DNA from: a virus
Reading direction: 5' to 3' (one strand)
Length of the DNA stretch: 26,070 nt
IMG/VR virus record: IMGVR_UViG_3300034682_000408
Coordinates: 1 to 26,070 of that record
Positions 1,679 to 5,641 of the stretch are shown piece after piece (positions within the stretch are counted from its first letter, which is position 1; every line of letters begins with the position of its first letter). The translations under genes were made by a program, and so were the position numbers. The notes below the pieces were generated by a model. The model saw only the letters and a program-made list of their open reading frames with translations. It made no database searches and was not told the origin of the DNA.

Positions 1679-2109
1679 CCACCATCGCCTACAAGGATGG
1701 CGTGATCTCCTACGACTCCCGCCAGACCCGCAGTGGCTCCATCGTTTCCGATGACTGCCAAAAGCTCACTGTCGTGGATGGGGTAAGCTTCTTCCTGTCC
1801 GGTGCCGTGTGCGATGAGAAGGCCCTGATTGCGGCCTACTTCGGCACGCCTTCGCCTGTTCCGGTCGAGTGCTCGGGCTATGTGGTGGATGGCGGCAGGC
1901 TGCAGATGGTCGGCCATGACGACAAGACTGGCGTATGGCGGCAGGACCTCGACCCGGCCAACCCTGACGCGATCGGCAGCGGCTCGGCCTATGCCCTGGC
2001 AGCGATGGACATGGGTGCAAGTGCTGAAGAGGCAGTACGCGCTGCCATGAAGCGGGACATCTACACCGGCGGCAAGGTTCGCACAGTTCGAATCTCCCGC
2101 GATCAGTAA
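1675..2109 (+). CDS. proteasome/HslV-like (T1 family) Ntn-hydrolase
   Basis: This 144-aa protein has the signature of the T1 threonine peptidases. After Met removal the chain begins TTIAYKDG, like HslV and proteasome beta subunits. The catalytic set is recognisable: Thr2 (nucleophile), Asp14 in YDSR (the Asp17 equivalent), Lys30 (the Lys33 equivalent, with the same 16-residue spacing from Asp14), an SGA turn at 42-44, GSGSAYALAAMD at 101-112 and Asp128/Thr131 followed by GG. It has no propeptide and is shorter than HslV (about 175 aa). No ATPase partner is encoded nearby. It overlaps the upstream ORF by four bases and ends 9 bases before the small terminase gene. A role in removing scaffold or in host proteolysis is only inference. 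The family call is firm, the function open. Confidence 0.82.
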   Translation: MTTIAYKDGVISYDSRQTRSGSIVSDDCQKLTVVDGVSFFLSGAVCDEKALIAAYFGTPSPVPVECSGYVVDGGRLQMVGHDDKTGVWRQDLDPANPDAIGSGSAYALAAMDMGASAEEAVRAAMKRDIYTGGKVRTVRISRDQ

Positions 2110-2440
2110 GGATTCGACATGAGCACCAAGCAACCCGACTGGGAGGCGATCGAACGAGCCTTCCGGGCCGGGGCGCTTTCCATCCGCACCATCGCTGACC
2201 GAAACGGGGTGAGTGACACCGCGATCAGGAAGAAGGCCAAGGCCTTGGGCTGGGAGCGGGACCTTTCCGAGCAGGTCCGCAAAGAGGTTCGCAACAAGCT
2301 GGTTCGCGGCGAGGTTCGCGAAGACCAATGTGCGAACCCTGAGCGGGACGCCGAGATCATCGAAGAGGCGGCAGAAGAGGGCGCGACGGTTGTTCGCAGC
2401 CACCGCCGCGACATTCGCAAGGCCACGAACCTTGCGAACC
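2076..2440. repeat. cluster of GGTTCGC heptamers, candidate terminase-binding (pac/cos) region
   Basis: GGTTCGC occurs at 2076-2082, 2286-2292, 2301-2307 and 2313-2319, and its complement GCGAACC at 2332-2338 and 2434-2440. Near matches are at 2086-2091, 2391-2397, 2413-2418 and 2425-2431. The first lies at the end of the peptidase gene, the rest in the small terminase gene. Three direct copies are spaced 15 and 12 bases apart. Elsewhere in the window I find only scattered single copies (for example near 1606, 14757, 16956 and 19533). Packaging initiation sites of several phages lie in or beside terS. Part of the cluster encodes Val-Arg pairs, so protein constraint contributes. Confidence 0.5.
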
Positions 2441-2720: not shown

Positions 2721-4208
2721 ATGAAGCCCGAGCACATGAAACTGCTCAGGGATCGGTTTTGGCGGCTGAACAACCTGTACTTCATCACGGACAAGCAGGG
2801 CAAGAAGGTCCGCTTCCGCATGACGCAGGAGCAGATCGACTACTTCCAGGGGATGCACACCCGCAACATCATCCTCAAGGCTCGGCAGCTGGGATTCACC
2901 ACGCTGGTGTGCATTGTCCAGCTGGATGCTGCGCTGTTTGAGGCTGCCAAGTGCGCCCTGATCGCCCACACCTTGAACGACGCCAAGCGGCTGTTTCGCG
3001 AGAAGATCAAATATGCTTATGACCACCTTCCCAAGGAGATACGCGCTGCCAACCCTGCTCGCAACGATGCTGCTGGTGAGCTTGTGTTTAGCAAGGGCGG
3101 ATCGCTCTACGTGTCCACATCCTTTCGGGGCGGGACTCTACGGTATCTGCACGTATCCGAATTCGGGAAGATCTGTGCCAAGTTTCCCCACAAAGCCCGA
3201 GAGATCGTCACCGGGGCATTCGAGGCCGTCGCCGCAGAGTGCTTTGTTACGATCGAGTCGACGGCGGAGGGCCGGGCGGGCTACTTCTTCGATTACTCGC
3301 AGAGCGCAGAGAAGCAGCAGCTGGCAGGTGTTCCCCTGGGCCTGCTCGACTGGAAGTTCTTCTTCTTCAGCTGGTGGCGGAACCCGCTGTACTGGCTGGA
3401 CCCGGCCGGAGTGGTCATTCCCGACCGCCTGACCAAGTATTTCGACGACCTGACCGCCAAGCACGGCATCGTCACCAACCAAGGCCAGCGCGCCTGGTAC
3501 AGCGCCAAGGAAAAGACCCTCGGCGACGACATGAAGCGGGAGTACCCGTCGATCCCTGCCGAGGCATTCCAGCAGACGATCGAGGGTGCCTACTACGCCA
3601 AGCAGTTCACCAAGCTCTACGCCGCCCAGCGCATCGGCAAGCTGCCTGACAACAGCCACCTGCCGGTGCACACCTTCTGGGATATCGGCGTGGGCGACTC
3701 CACGGCCATCTGGTTCGTCCGGATCGTCGGCGAGGAGTACCACATCGTCGATTTCTACCAGAACAGCGGCGAAGGCCTGCGGCACTACATGAAGGTGCTG
3801 AAGGATCGCGGCTACGAGTACGGCGAGCACTGGGGCCCCCACGACATCGACAACCGGGAATTCGGTAGCGACGGCAAGACTCGGCGCGAACTCGCACGAG
3901 AGGGCTACGAGATCGACGGACAGCGCTATTCGCTGACCTTCCAGGTGGTGCCCAAGCTCGGCGTGGACGAAGGCATCGAGCAGGCTCGGGAAATCCTCCC
4001 CAACTGCGCCTTCGACGAAGCCAAATGCGAGGAGGGCATCACCGCCCTGGAGAGCTACCGCAAGGAATGGGACGACAAGCGCGGCTGCTGGAAAGACAAG
4101 CCGCTGCATGACTGGTCATCCCACCCTGCTGACGCATTCCGCTACTTCGCCGTGGCCAAGACCAAGCGCTCCGTGGTCAAGCACGTACCCATCACGTTCA
4201 CTTTCTGA
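2721..4208 (+). CDS. terL: terminase large subunit (packaging ATPase and nuclease)
   Basis: This 495-aa protein has both motor parts. In the N-terminal ATPase, the Walker A-like P-loop is KARQLGFTT (residues 53-61), Walker B with catalytic Glu is LHVSE (143-147) and motif III is TIESTAEG (177-184). The C-terminal nuclease has an RNase H-like start, FWDIGVGDST, with Asp321, an HDIDNREFG segment, and HDWSSHPADAFRY near the end with Asp464 and Asp471 as metal ligands. The length is normal for the family. It translocates DNA into the prohead through the portal and cuts the concatemer. ATG 2721 follows AAGGA 10 bases upstream and starts two bases after the terS stop. The portal gene follows 8 bases later. 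Confidence 0.95.
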   Translation: MKPEHMKLLRDRFWRLNNLYFITDKQGKKVRFRMTQEQIDYFQGMHTRNIILKARQLGFTTLVCIVQLDAALFEAAKCALIAHTLNDAKRLFREKIKYAYDHLPKEIRAANPARNDAAGELVFSKGGSLYVSTSFRGGTLRYLHVSEFGKICAKFPHKAREIVTGAFEAVAAECFVTIESTAEGRAGYFFDYSQSAEKQQLAGVPLGLLDWKFFFFSWWRNPLYWLDPAGVVIPDRLTKYFDDLTAKHGIVTNQGQRAWYSAKEKTLGDDMKREYPSIPAEAFQQTIEGAYYAKQFTKLYAAQRIGKLPDNSHLPVHTFWDIGVGDSTAIWFVRIVGEEYHIVDFYQNSGEGLRHYMKVLKDRGYEYGEHWGPHDIDNREFGSDGKTRRELAREGYEIDGQRYSLTFQVVPKLGVDEGIEQAREILPNCAFDEAKCEEGITALESYRKEWDDKRGCWKDKPLHDWSSHPADAFRYFAVAKTKRSVVKHVPITFTF

Positions 4209-4216
4209 GGCCACCC

Positions 4217-5641
4217 ATGCCGAACTTCATTCCCCGGGCAGAGTACTCGGAGGCCTTGCCCGGCTGGCAGCTGGTCAAGCGCTGCGTGGCCGGCGCCCGT
4301 GAGGTGCGCAAGCACGACGAATACCTGCCGATGCCGGACCCGGAGAACAAATCACCGGAGAACCTGGCGCGGTACAAGCAGTACAAGAAGCGAGCGATGT
4401 TCCTGAACATCACCGGGCGCACGCGTACCGGCCTGCTGGGGGCGGTGTTCCGCAAGACAGCCGAACTGCAACTGCCCGCCGGCGTGGAGTACCTGAAGGA
4501 GAACGCCAGCGGCGACGGCACGAGCCTGGAGCAGCTTTCCAAGGATGCTGTGGGGGAGTGTCTGGATGCTGGTCGTGGCGGCTTCCTCGTGGATTTCCCT
4601 GCGGTTGAGGGCGTGTCCTCGATGGCGGACATGCAGGGTCGGCGAGCCCTGATCCATCACTACGACGCCGAGTCGATCATCGACTGGGACGAGCAGGTGG
4701 TCGATGGTGTGAAGCGCCTGGTCTATGTCTGCTTGCTGGAGTGTGTGTCCGTGTTCAGCTCGGACAGTTTGGAGCGCACAACCAGCACCCAATATCGCGT
4801 GTTGCTGCTGGTTGATGGCCGCTACGTCCAGCGCATCTACGGAAAGGACGGCGTCAACTACACCGAATTCTCGCCGCTCGACAAGAACGGCCAGGCCTTC
4901 GATCACATCCTTTTCAGCTTCTACGGCTCTCAGAACAACGACGCCAGCGTCGACAAATCGCCTCTTGAAGACCTGGCTGATGTGAACATCCTGCACTACG
5001 GCAACAGTGCCACGGTGGAGGAGAGCGGCTTCATCAGCAGCCAGCCCACGCTGTTCATCACCACCGACATCAGCGCGGATGATTTCGCCAAGCTGAACCC
5101 CAACGGCATCCACATCGGCTCTACCCGCGGGTTCAACCTCGGCAAGTCCGGTGACGCAAAGCTTGTCCAGGCGGCCGAGAGCCAACTGGCCCGCACGTTG
5201 CTCAAGGACAAGGAAGAGCAGATGCTGATGATCGGCGCCCGCATCGTCCAGAAGGCGGGCGGAGCCGAGACGGCCGAGGCCGTGCGCATCCGCTACAGTT
5301 CGGACAACAGTGTGCTTGGCACAATCGCTGGCAACGTGTCTGAGGCCCTGAAACGGGCCATCCTCGACGCCGAGCGCTTCATGATGGGCGAGCCGGACGA
5401 GGAGGGGACGGTCTTCTGGCTCAATCAGTCGTTCTTCGACGAGACGATGACCGCCCAGGACATCCTGGCCCAGGTCCAGCTCTGGCAGCAGGGAATCATC
5501 GCGAAGTCCGACCTGCGCACCAACCTGCGCCAGGGCGGCGTGCTCGAGGCCGACCGCACCGACGAGCTGATCGACGATGAACTGGCCGAGCAGCCGCCGG
5601 TGACCGGCGACGACACCGGAGGCGGTGAGGATGAGCAGTGA
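4217..5641 (+). CDS. portal protein (DUF4055 type)
   Basis: This 474-aa protein lies between large terminase and a MuF-like head protein, the standard portal position. Its opening (a WQLVKRCVAG helix, then KRAMFLNITGRTRTGLLGAVFRK) and central VDFP/IIDWDEQ blocks match what I recall of the DUF4055 portals of Pseudomonas and other proteobacterial phages. The tail (DDELAEQPPV...) is acidic and low-complexity, often seen at portal C-termini. It would form the dodecameric ring at one vertex that admits DNA, docks terminase and later the connector. ATG 4217 follows the terL stop by eight bases, with a weak GAGG. The 3' end overlaps the next gene by 11 bases. Confidence 0.87.
   Translation: MPNFIPRAEYSEALPGWQLVKRCVAGAREVRKHDEYLPMPDPENKSPENLARYKQYKKRAMFLNITGRTRTGLLGAVFRKTAELQLPAGVEYLKENASGDGTSLEQLSKDAVGECLDAGRGGFLVDFPAVEGVSSMADMQGRRALIHHYDAESIIDWDEQVVDGVKRLVYVCLLECVSVFSSDSLERTTSTQYRVLLLVDGRYVQRIYGKDGVNYTEFSPLDKNGQAFDHILFSFYGSQNNDASVDKSPLEDLADVNILHYGNSATVEESGFISSQPTLFITTDISADDFAKLNPNGIHIGSTRGFNLGKSGDAKLVQAAESQLARTLLKDKEEQMLMIGARIVQKAGGAETAEAVRIRYSSDNSVLGTIAGNVSEALKRAILDAERFMMGEPDEEGTVFWLNQSFFDETMTAQDILAQVQLWQQGIIAKSDLRTNLRQGGVLEADRTDELIDDELAEQPPVTGDDTGGGEDEQ

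Follow-up and report, generated by a model that had tools for sequence, protein, structure and literature searches.

A repeated-word array inside the small terminase gene of a Pseudomonas phage as a probable headful packaging site read by TerS

The pac site of phage P1 consists of hexanucleotides repeated in pacA, in two clusters inside the small-subunit gene, and these words are Dam sites. By this description it is like the array reported here, which also consists of short words repeated inside a small-subunit gene. In the headful phages SPP1 and SF6, pac and the start of the TerS gene overlap, direct repeats occur in sets within pac, and TerS has an N-terminal helix-turn-helix (PMC6316719, PMC4737164); all this is similar to our array. 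The DNA-binding domain of SF6 TerS, however, bound pac DNA in vitro with little sequence specificity (PMC4737164), which counts against our reading of the array, and covariation between residues and words is not found in the SPP1 and SF6 papers (PMC6316719, PMC4737164). Unlike in SPP1 and SF6, the array of the present family lies deeper in the gene, has a fixed spacing of 15/12 or 12/13 and is made of covarying words. The headful phage P22 has its packaging site inside the TerS gene as well, but this is described as one 22-bp asymmetric sequence rather than as spaced repeats, and binding of TerS was not measurable in vitro (PMC9611059). In lambda, 21 and N15 the TerS recognition helix discriminates the repeated R sequences of cosB in a phage-specific manner (PMC4669245), similar to what we propose below. 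Yet these phages package by cos, their R sites adjoin cosN, and three specificities have been characterised, compared with 12 words with residue-to-base correspondence here; moreover, cosB of the lambda type needs cohesive ends, whereas an array-bearing relative with mapped ends is permuted (PMC6372524). According to a review from 2022, pac-type TerS proteins make weak, sequence-independent DNA contacts in vitro, and base reading is still to be deciphered (PMC9611059). A TerS site in its own gene is of a known kind; the readable, covarying code appears to be new, and our literature searches, which covered open-licence papers, found no description of the array or the code.

The window, i.e. the whole stretch of DNA analysed here, is a virus contig fragment of 26,070 bases. 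The genes around the array and the relevant parts of terS are:

1141-1463: holin
1675-2109: HslV-like (proteasome beta type) peptidase, directly 5' of terS
2119-2718, + strand: terS, small terminase subunit, 199 aa, the proposed reader of the array (phrog_1206, E 3e-67, residues 2-194)
2182-2247, + strand: predicted TerS helix-turn-helix, residues 22-43 (AlphaFold2 model and covariation)
2215-2247, + strand: TerS recognition helix, residues 33-43 (AlphaFold2 model)
2215-2217, 2218-2220 and 2227-2229, + strand: candidate specificity residues D33, T34 and R37 (covariation)
2721-4208, + strand: terL, large terminase subunit, proposed to be recruited by TerS (phrog_2, E 3e-42)
4217-5641: portal; terL and portal lie directly 3' of terS

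Comparison of the protein with the family model places the window TerS in phrog_1206. A profile search against solved structures returned no TerS, the best match being the helix-turn-helix of TyrR (E 0.04), and homology to the solved TerS of SPP1 and SF6, which would mark an SPP1-type protein, was not detectable. Foldseek of the TerS model against the PDB gave no significant match, and dominance of the comparison by the long helical core may be the reason. The AlphaFold2 model has a tri-helical domain with helices 8-17, 22-29 and 33-43 (pLDDT about 82-87). The third of these is the predicted recognition helix, and residues 33, 34 and 37 lie at its start, as its positions 1, 2 and 5.

The window contains ten copies of GGTTCGC, where 5.3 are expected (sd 2.4). 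Six exact copies fall within 2076-2440, four direct (2076, 2286, 2301, 2313) and two inverted (2332, 2434), and the remaining four are scattered (1608 on the minus strand, 14758, 16956, 19535). Among all heptamers and all 365-base stretches of the window, this count is the highest. When the sequence was shuffled by dinucleotides, none of 200 runs gave six copies of a heptamer, whichever it was, within 365 bases; when the genes were shuffled by synonymous codons, one of 200 did. GGTTCGC itself stayed at three or fewer per 365 bases in both sets. The clustering is not explicable by chance. The direct sites at 2286, 2301 and 2313 are spaced by exactly 15 and then 12 bases. The first-pass annotation, which had reported six copies in 365 bp with the others scattered and three of them 15 and 12 bases apart, was thus right in both counts. 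Its placement of the cluster, 2076-2440 at the start of terS, holds for 2286-2440. The copy at 2076 lies inside the HslV-like gene, with 36 bases between its end and terS, and it is placed outside the array because the relatives listed have no GGTTCGC in the 100 bases upstream of terS; being unconserved, it is probably a chance occurrence. GGTCCGC at 2274 was dropped as well, as it is not conserved among relatives. The conserved array, near matches included, starts about 170 and ends about 320 bases into the coding region. Its sites, with their conservation among relatives in a codon alignment of 73 non-redundant terS genes, are:

2286-2292, + strand: site 1, GGTTCGC (GTT 72/73, CGC 73/73)
2301-2307, + strand: site 2, GGTTCGC, 15 bases past site 1 (GTT 73/73, CGC 73/73)
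2313-2319, + strand: site 3, GGTTCGC, 12 bases past site 2 (GTT 73/73, CGC 73/73)
2332-2338, - strand: site 4, inverted GGTTCGC, GCGAACC on the + strand (GCG 72/73, AAC 73/73)
2391-2397, + strand: site 5, TGTTCGC, core GTTCGC, GGTTCGC in one clade (GTT 72/73, CGC 71/73)
2412-2418, + strand: weaker site 6, CATTCGC (ATT 66/73, CGC 67/73)
2425-2431, - strand: weaker site 7, inverted GGTTCGT, GGTTCGC in several relatives (from the relatives' alignment)
2434-2440, - strand: site 8, inverted GGTTCGC (GCG 65/73, AAC 64/73)

Close relatives comprised about 95 TerS genes, 75-98% identical, from viral contigs, bacterial genomes and phage records. Each of them has at least two exact GGTTCGC and at least four copies of the core GTTCGC. 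At 2287, 2302 and 2314 GTT CGC is kept in 72-73 of the 73 aligned genes, which is the opposite of the synonymous divergence in close relatives that had been named at first as evidence against a recognition array. Val and Arg codons elsewhere vary: the expected pairwise synonymous difference is 0.61 for Val and 0.63 for Arg, compared with 0-0.03 observed at the core sites. The stretches with the least synonymous variation in terS, 2311-2337 and 2281-2307, coincide with the core array. Since the core codons hardly differ among relatives and Val and Arg are encoded variably elsewhere, selection on the array is judged to act at the DNA level. In the clade including PseuP_222, an extra inverted copy read in a different frame (TGC GAA C) stands beside site 4, and some members also have a direct copy, GGT TCG C, near 2170, likewise in another frame. 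Low synonymous variation was also seen in the first terS codons (2119-2184; 9-codon ratios of 0.35 and 0.44, mean 0.66), which could reflect the translation start or another DNA signal. In terL it was very low at 2808-2834 and 3156-3182 (ratios 0.23 and 0.31, 60 relatives).

TerS proteins 31-45% identical to that of the window have no GGTTCGC array and carry another word in the same geometry, down to about 30% identity. The general form is GGT-b4-b5-b6-CA, and 12 words were found, including GGTACGCA (HK639, GF-2, ST101), GGTATCCA (USP25), GGTTTCCA (Cruim01) and GGTGACCA (PS-1); L111 has GGTTGCCA and ENT1 GGTAACCA. The survey of 480 loci yielded 405 usable terS genes, which were searched with a test that presupposes no word, namely three copies identical in 7/7 bases at 15/12 or 12/13 spacing. 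Such a perfect triple was present in 358/405 genes, compared with 4/405 after synonymous shuffling. In the 93 genes of the class with 12/13 spacing, the first two copies share a reading frame that the third does not. The position of the inverted copy is variable across the family, while the direct triple is fixed. At in-frame sites the encoded dipeptide (V-R, V-S, V-A or V-T) shifts together with the word, as would be the case if the linker in the protein were dictated by the DNA word. Judged from the family as a whole, GGTTCGC is one of at least 12 words of a family-wide array and not a feature of the window phage alone. The exact pattern GGTTCGC-8-GGTTCGC-5-GGTTCGC was found in 15/399 Pseudomonas genomes, once each and always in a terS with the DTAIR helix; a reversed control pattern was found in none of the same 399 genomes. 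In a PS-1-like subgroup (L361, L355, L338) with E-G-T-I-R-S or E-S-T-I-R-S helices, the words begin with TTC or GTC instead of GGT (TCACGCA, TCGCGCA); judged by this subgroup, even the half of the word that is constant elsewhere can change.

The variable bases follow three residues of the predicted recognition helix. With the word register chosen codon-aligned, residues 33-34-37 correspond to b4-b6 as follows:

D-T-R: TCG
E/D-G-R: ACG
H-T-N: TTC
H-G-N: ATC
H-T-Q: TGC
H-N-L/M: GAC
H-A-L: AAC
H-V-A: TAC
H-V-S: TAA

A tree of 123 representatives was built with the helix-turn-helix and the array region left out (164 alignment columns). On this tree the word changed 42 times, and 37 of the changes fell on branches with a change in the helix residues. 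By parsimony, with p-values that depend on the tree, b4 shared 25 changes with residue 34 (p 7e-24), b5 shared 18 with residue 37 (p 2e-15), and b6 shared 18/18 with residue 33 when D and E were merged (p 2e-24). Outside residues 28-43, no column did better than p 1e-6 among 393 tests. As b5 tracks residue 33 as well and residues 33 and 37 often change jointly, the assignment of b5 to residue 37 rests mainly on the conditional table. Pairs of TerS less than 40% identical outside the helix and array region but with the same four helix residues had identical words in 1272/1272 cases; in pairs more than 90% identical with differing helix residues, the word differed in 21/23. Predicting a base from one residue, using relatives less than 55% identical, was correct in 85/93, 75/82 and 95/99 cases (48, 23 and 22 by majority guess). 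Common side-chain preferences are Arg with G, Asn with A, Asp or Glu with C, and His with G; the residue-base pairs would fit these if the helix reads the complementary strand. Two exceptions to the code were found, L398 (H-T-N with GTTGCC) and L448 (H-V-N with TAC).

The covarying helix is encoded only about 60-130 bp from the core array. As they lie so close together, recombination of the whole block may have contributed to their joint changes. Switches of a single residue with a single base, HTAN to HTAQ with GTTTCC to GTTGCC and EGTR to ESTR with TCACGC to TCGCGC, argue that such recombination is probably not the whole story.

Remote homologues were examined after the rules of the code had been written down, which makes them a partial prospective test. 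The outcome looks mixed. L512 and L513 fit the code. For L527 (E-S-R) the predicted GTGCGC ranks first among the clustered words; its cluster lies 1.4 kb upstream, and terS holds additional copies. In L519 (E-I-R) a GT[T/A]CGC array with 12/15 spacing precedes the matched terS by about 0.4 kb, with b5 and b6 as predicted. In L112 (D-T-H), GTTTGC just 5' of terS agrees with the prediction in b4 and b6 and not in b5, and GTTCGC is present in L155. No array was detectable in L159, L202, L515, L517, L518, L520, L522, L525 and L526. The GGT[A/T]CGC-like array of L519, at 1083-1143 of that locus, is located upstream of the matched terS and not inside it.

Taken together, the array is most probably the part of the packaging-initiation (pac) site that is recognised in a headful Pseudomonas phage; it is located in terS and would be bound by the N-terminal helix-turn-helix of TerS. 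The covariation with the predicted recognition helix strongly implies binding of TerS to the array; we infer that TerS physically binds it at several sites, that TerL is recruited and cuts nearby, and that the array serves packaging. In the proposed mechanism, the helix-turn-helix would bind copies of GGT-b4-b5-b6-CA, with the recognition helix reading b4 by residue 34, b5 by residue 37 and b6 by residue 33. Copies 12-15 bp apart would be filled by several such domains belonging to one TerS oligomer, and TerL, brought by TerS, would make the first cut near the array. A site for headful (pac) packaging is expected to be specific, to lie in or near terS and to be repeated or asymmetric; the array in terS, with an exact triple once per host genome (15/399), agrees with this. 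For Edno5, virion reads point to a genome that is permuted and has no fixed ends (PMC6372524), headful packaging is reported for vB_EhrS_49 and vB_EhrS_59 (PMC7317114), and Cruim01 and the Orisa phages have no detectable ends (PMC11256456). In our analysis arrays were present in Edno5, vB_EhrS_49 and SEN34. The initial suggestion of a packaging-site recognition array is therefore upheld by codon conservation, by covariation with the helix and by permuted or headful relatives (PMC6372524, PMC7317114), the copy at 2076 excepted.

Binding by TerS could also serve another purpose. Covariation tells who binds and not why, and the same array would be bound by TerS if it were an operator through which TerS regulates transcription of terS and the packaging genes while packaging starts elsewhere. 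In SPP1 pac overlaps promoters, so that both roles can coexist (PMC6316719). We nevertheless regard a purely regulatory role as unlikely: about 170-320 bases inside the coding region is a poor place to control the own gene, family members reported to be headful need a TerS site (PMC6372524, PMC7317114), and the exact triple occurs only once per host genome. A reader other than TerS, either a host factor or a phage replication initiator acting on the repeats as iterons, is less probable still. Although the direct repeats are iteron-like and SPP1 likewise has a replication origin within the gene of its initiator (PMC6316719), it is TerS with which the word covaries, most strongly in columns of the predicted recognition helix. 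Moreover, Shamal and FBPa19 have TerS and the array in common with the window phage, while their neighbour genes, including the downstream terL, are annotated differently.

Other explanations do without a DNA-binding protein. Three direct copies and one inverted copy could form mRNA hairpins that control translation of terS and terL, and in the window the inverted copy does give a perfect 7-bp stem and the RNA 2275-2350 folds better than shuffles (z -3.85). But the fold is not unusual in HK639 (z -0.26) or Cruim01 (z -0.52) and is thus not conserved across words, it is the inverted copy whose position varies while the direct triple is fixed, and the covariation with recognition-helix residues is left unexplained; we consider this very improbable. 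An effect of the protein or of codon usage, with Val-Arg repeated in a linker, hardly deserves credence. All three core copies do encode Val-Arg in the window clade; yet synonymous codons are avoided at the core sites and used elsewhere, copies also occur in other reading frames, the dipeptide shifts to VS, VA or VT in concert with the word, and the encoded linker is partly of low confidence in the AlphaFold2 model (residues 65-74, pLDDT <50). Chance and codon usage are rejected by the shuffles, the codon conservation and the 358/405 triples compared with 4/405.

Returning to packaging, we think it likely that the small terminases of a large family of headful phages read their packaging site base by base through a modular code. 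Lineages would have switched specificity repeatedly, through one to four substitutions in the helix and a joint rewriting of every copy, even though the array is embedded in their own terS, and the phages would thus fall into packaging-compatibility groups that can be read from the sequence. If the code is true, each TerS should prefer its own word, i.e. GGTTCGCA for TerS of PseuP_222 (DTAIR) and GGTACGCA for TerS of HK639 (EGAIR). Dozens of natural switches with a base-by-base prediction make the question of base reading by TerS testable. Packaging sites could also be located from the sequence in many prophages, for example in SEN34, where the array is present and no packaging sequence was identified (PMC5261728). 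Furthermore, the code could help to predict which satellites or plasmids can be mobilised by a given phage. The phages phiAH14a and phiAH14b are reported as a headful helper-satellite pair (PMC4936722); the TerS candidate of phiAH14a has no such helix or array, and hence the pair provides no test. At a place similar to that of the HslV-like gene of the window, phiAH14a has a gene annotated as proteasome subunit beta.
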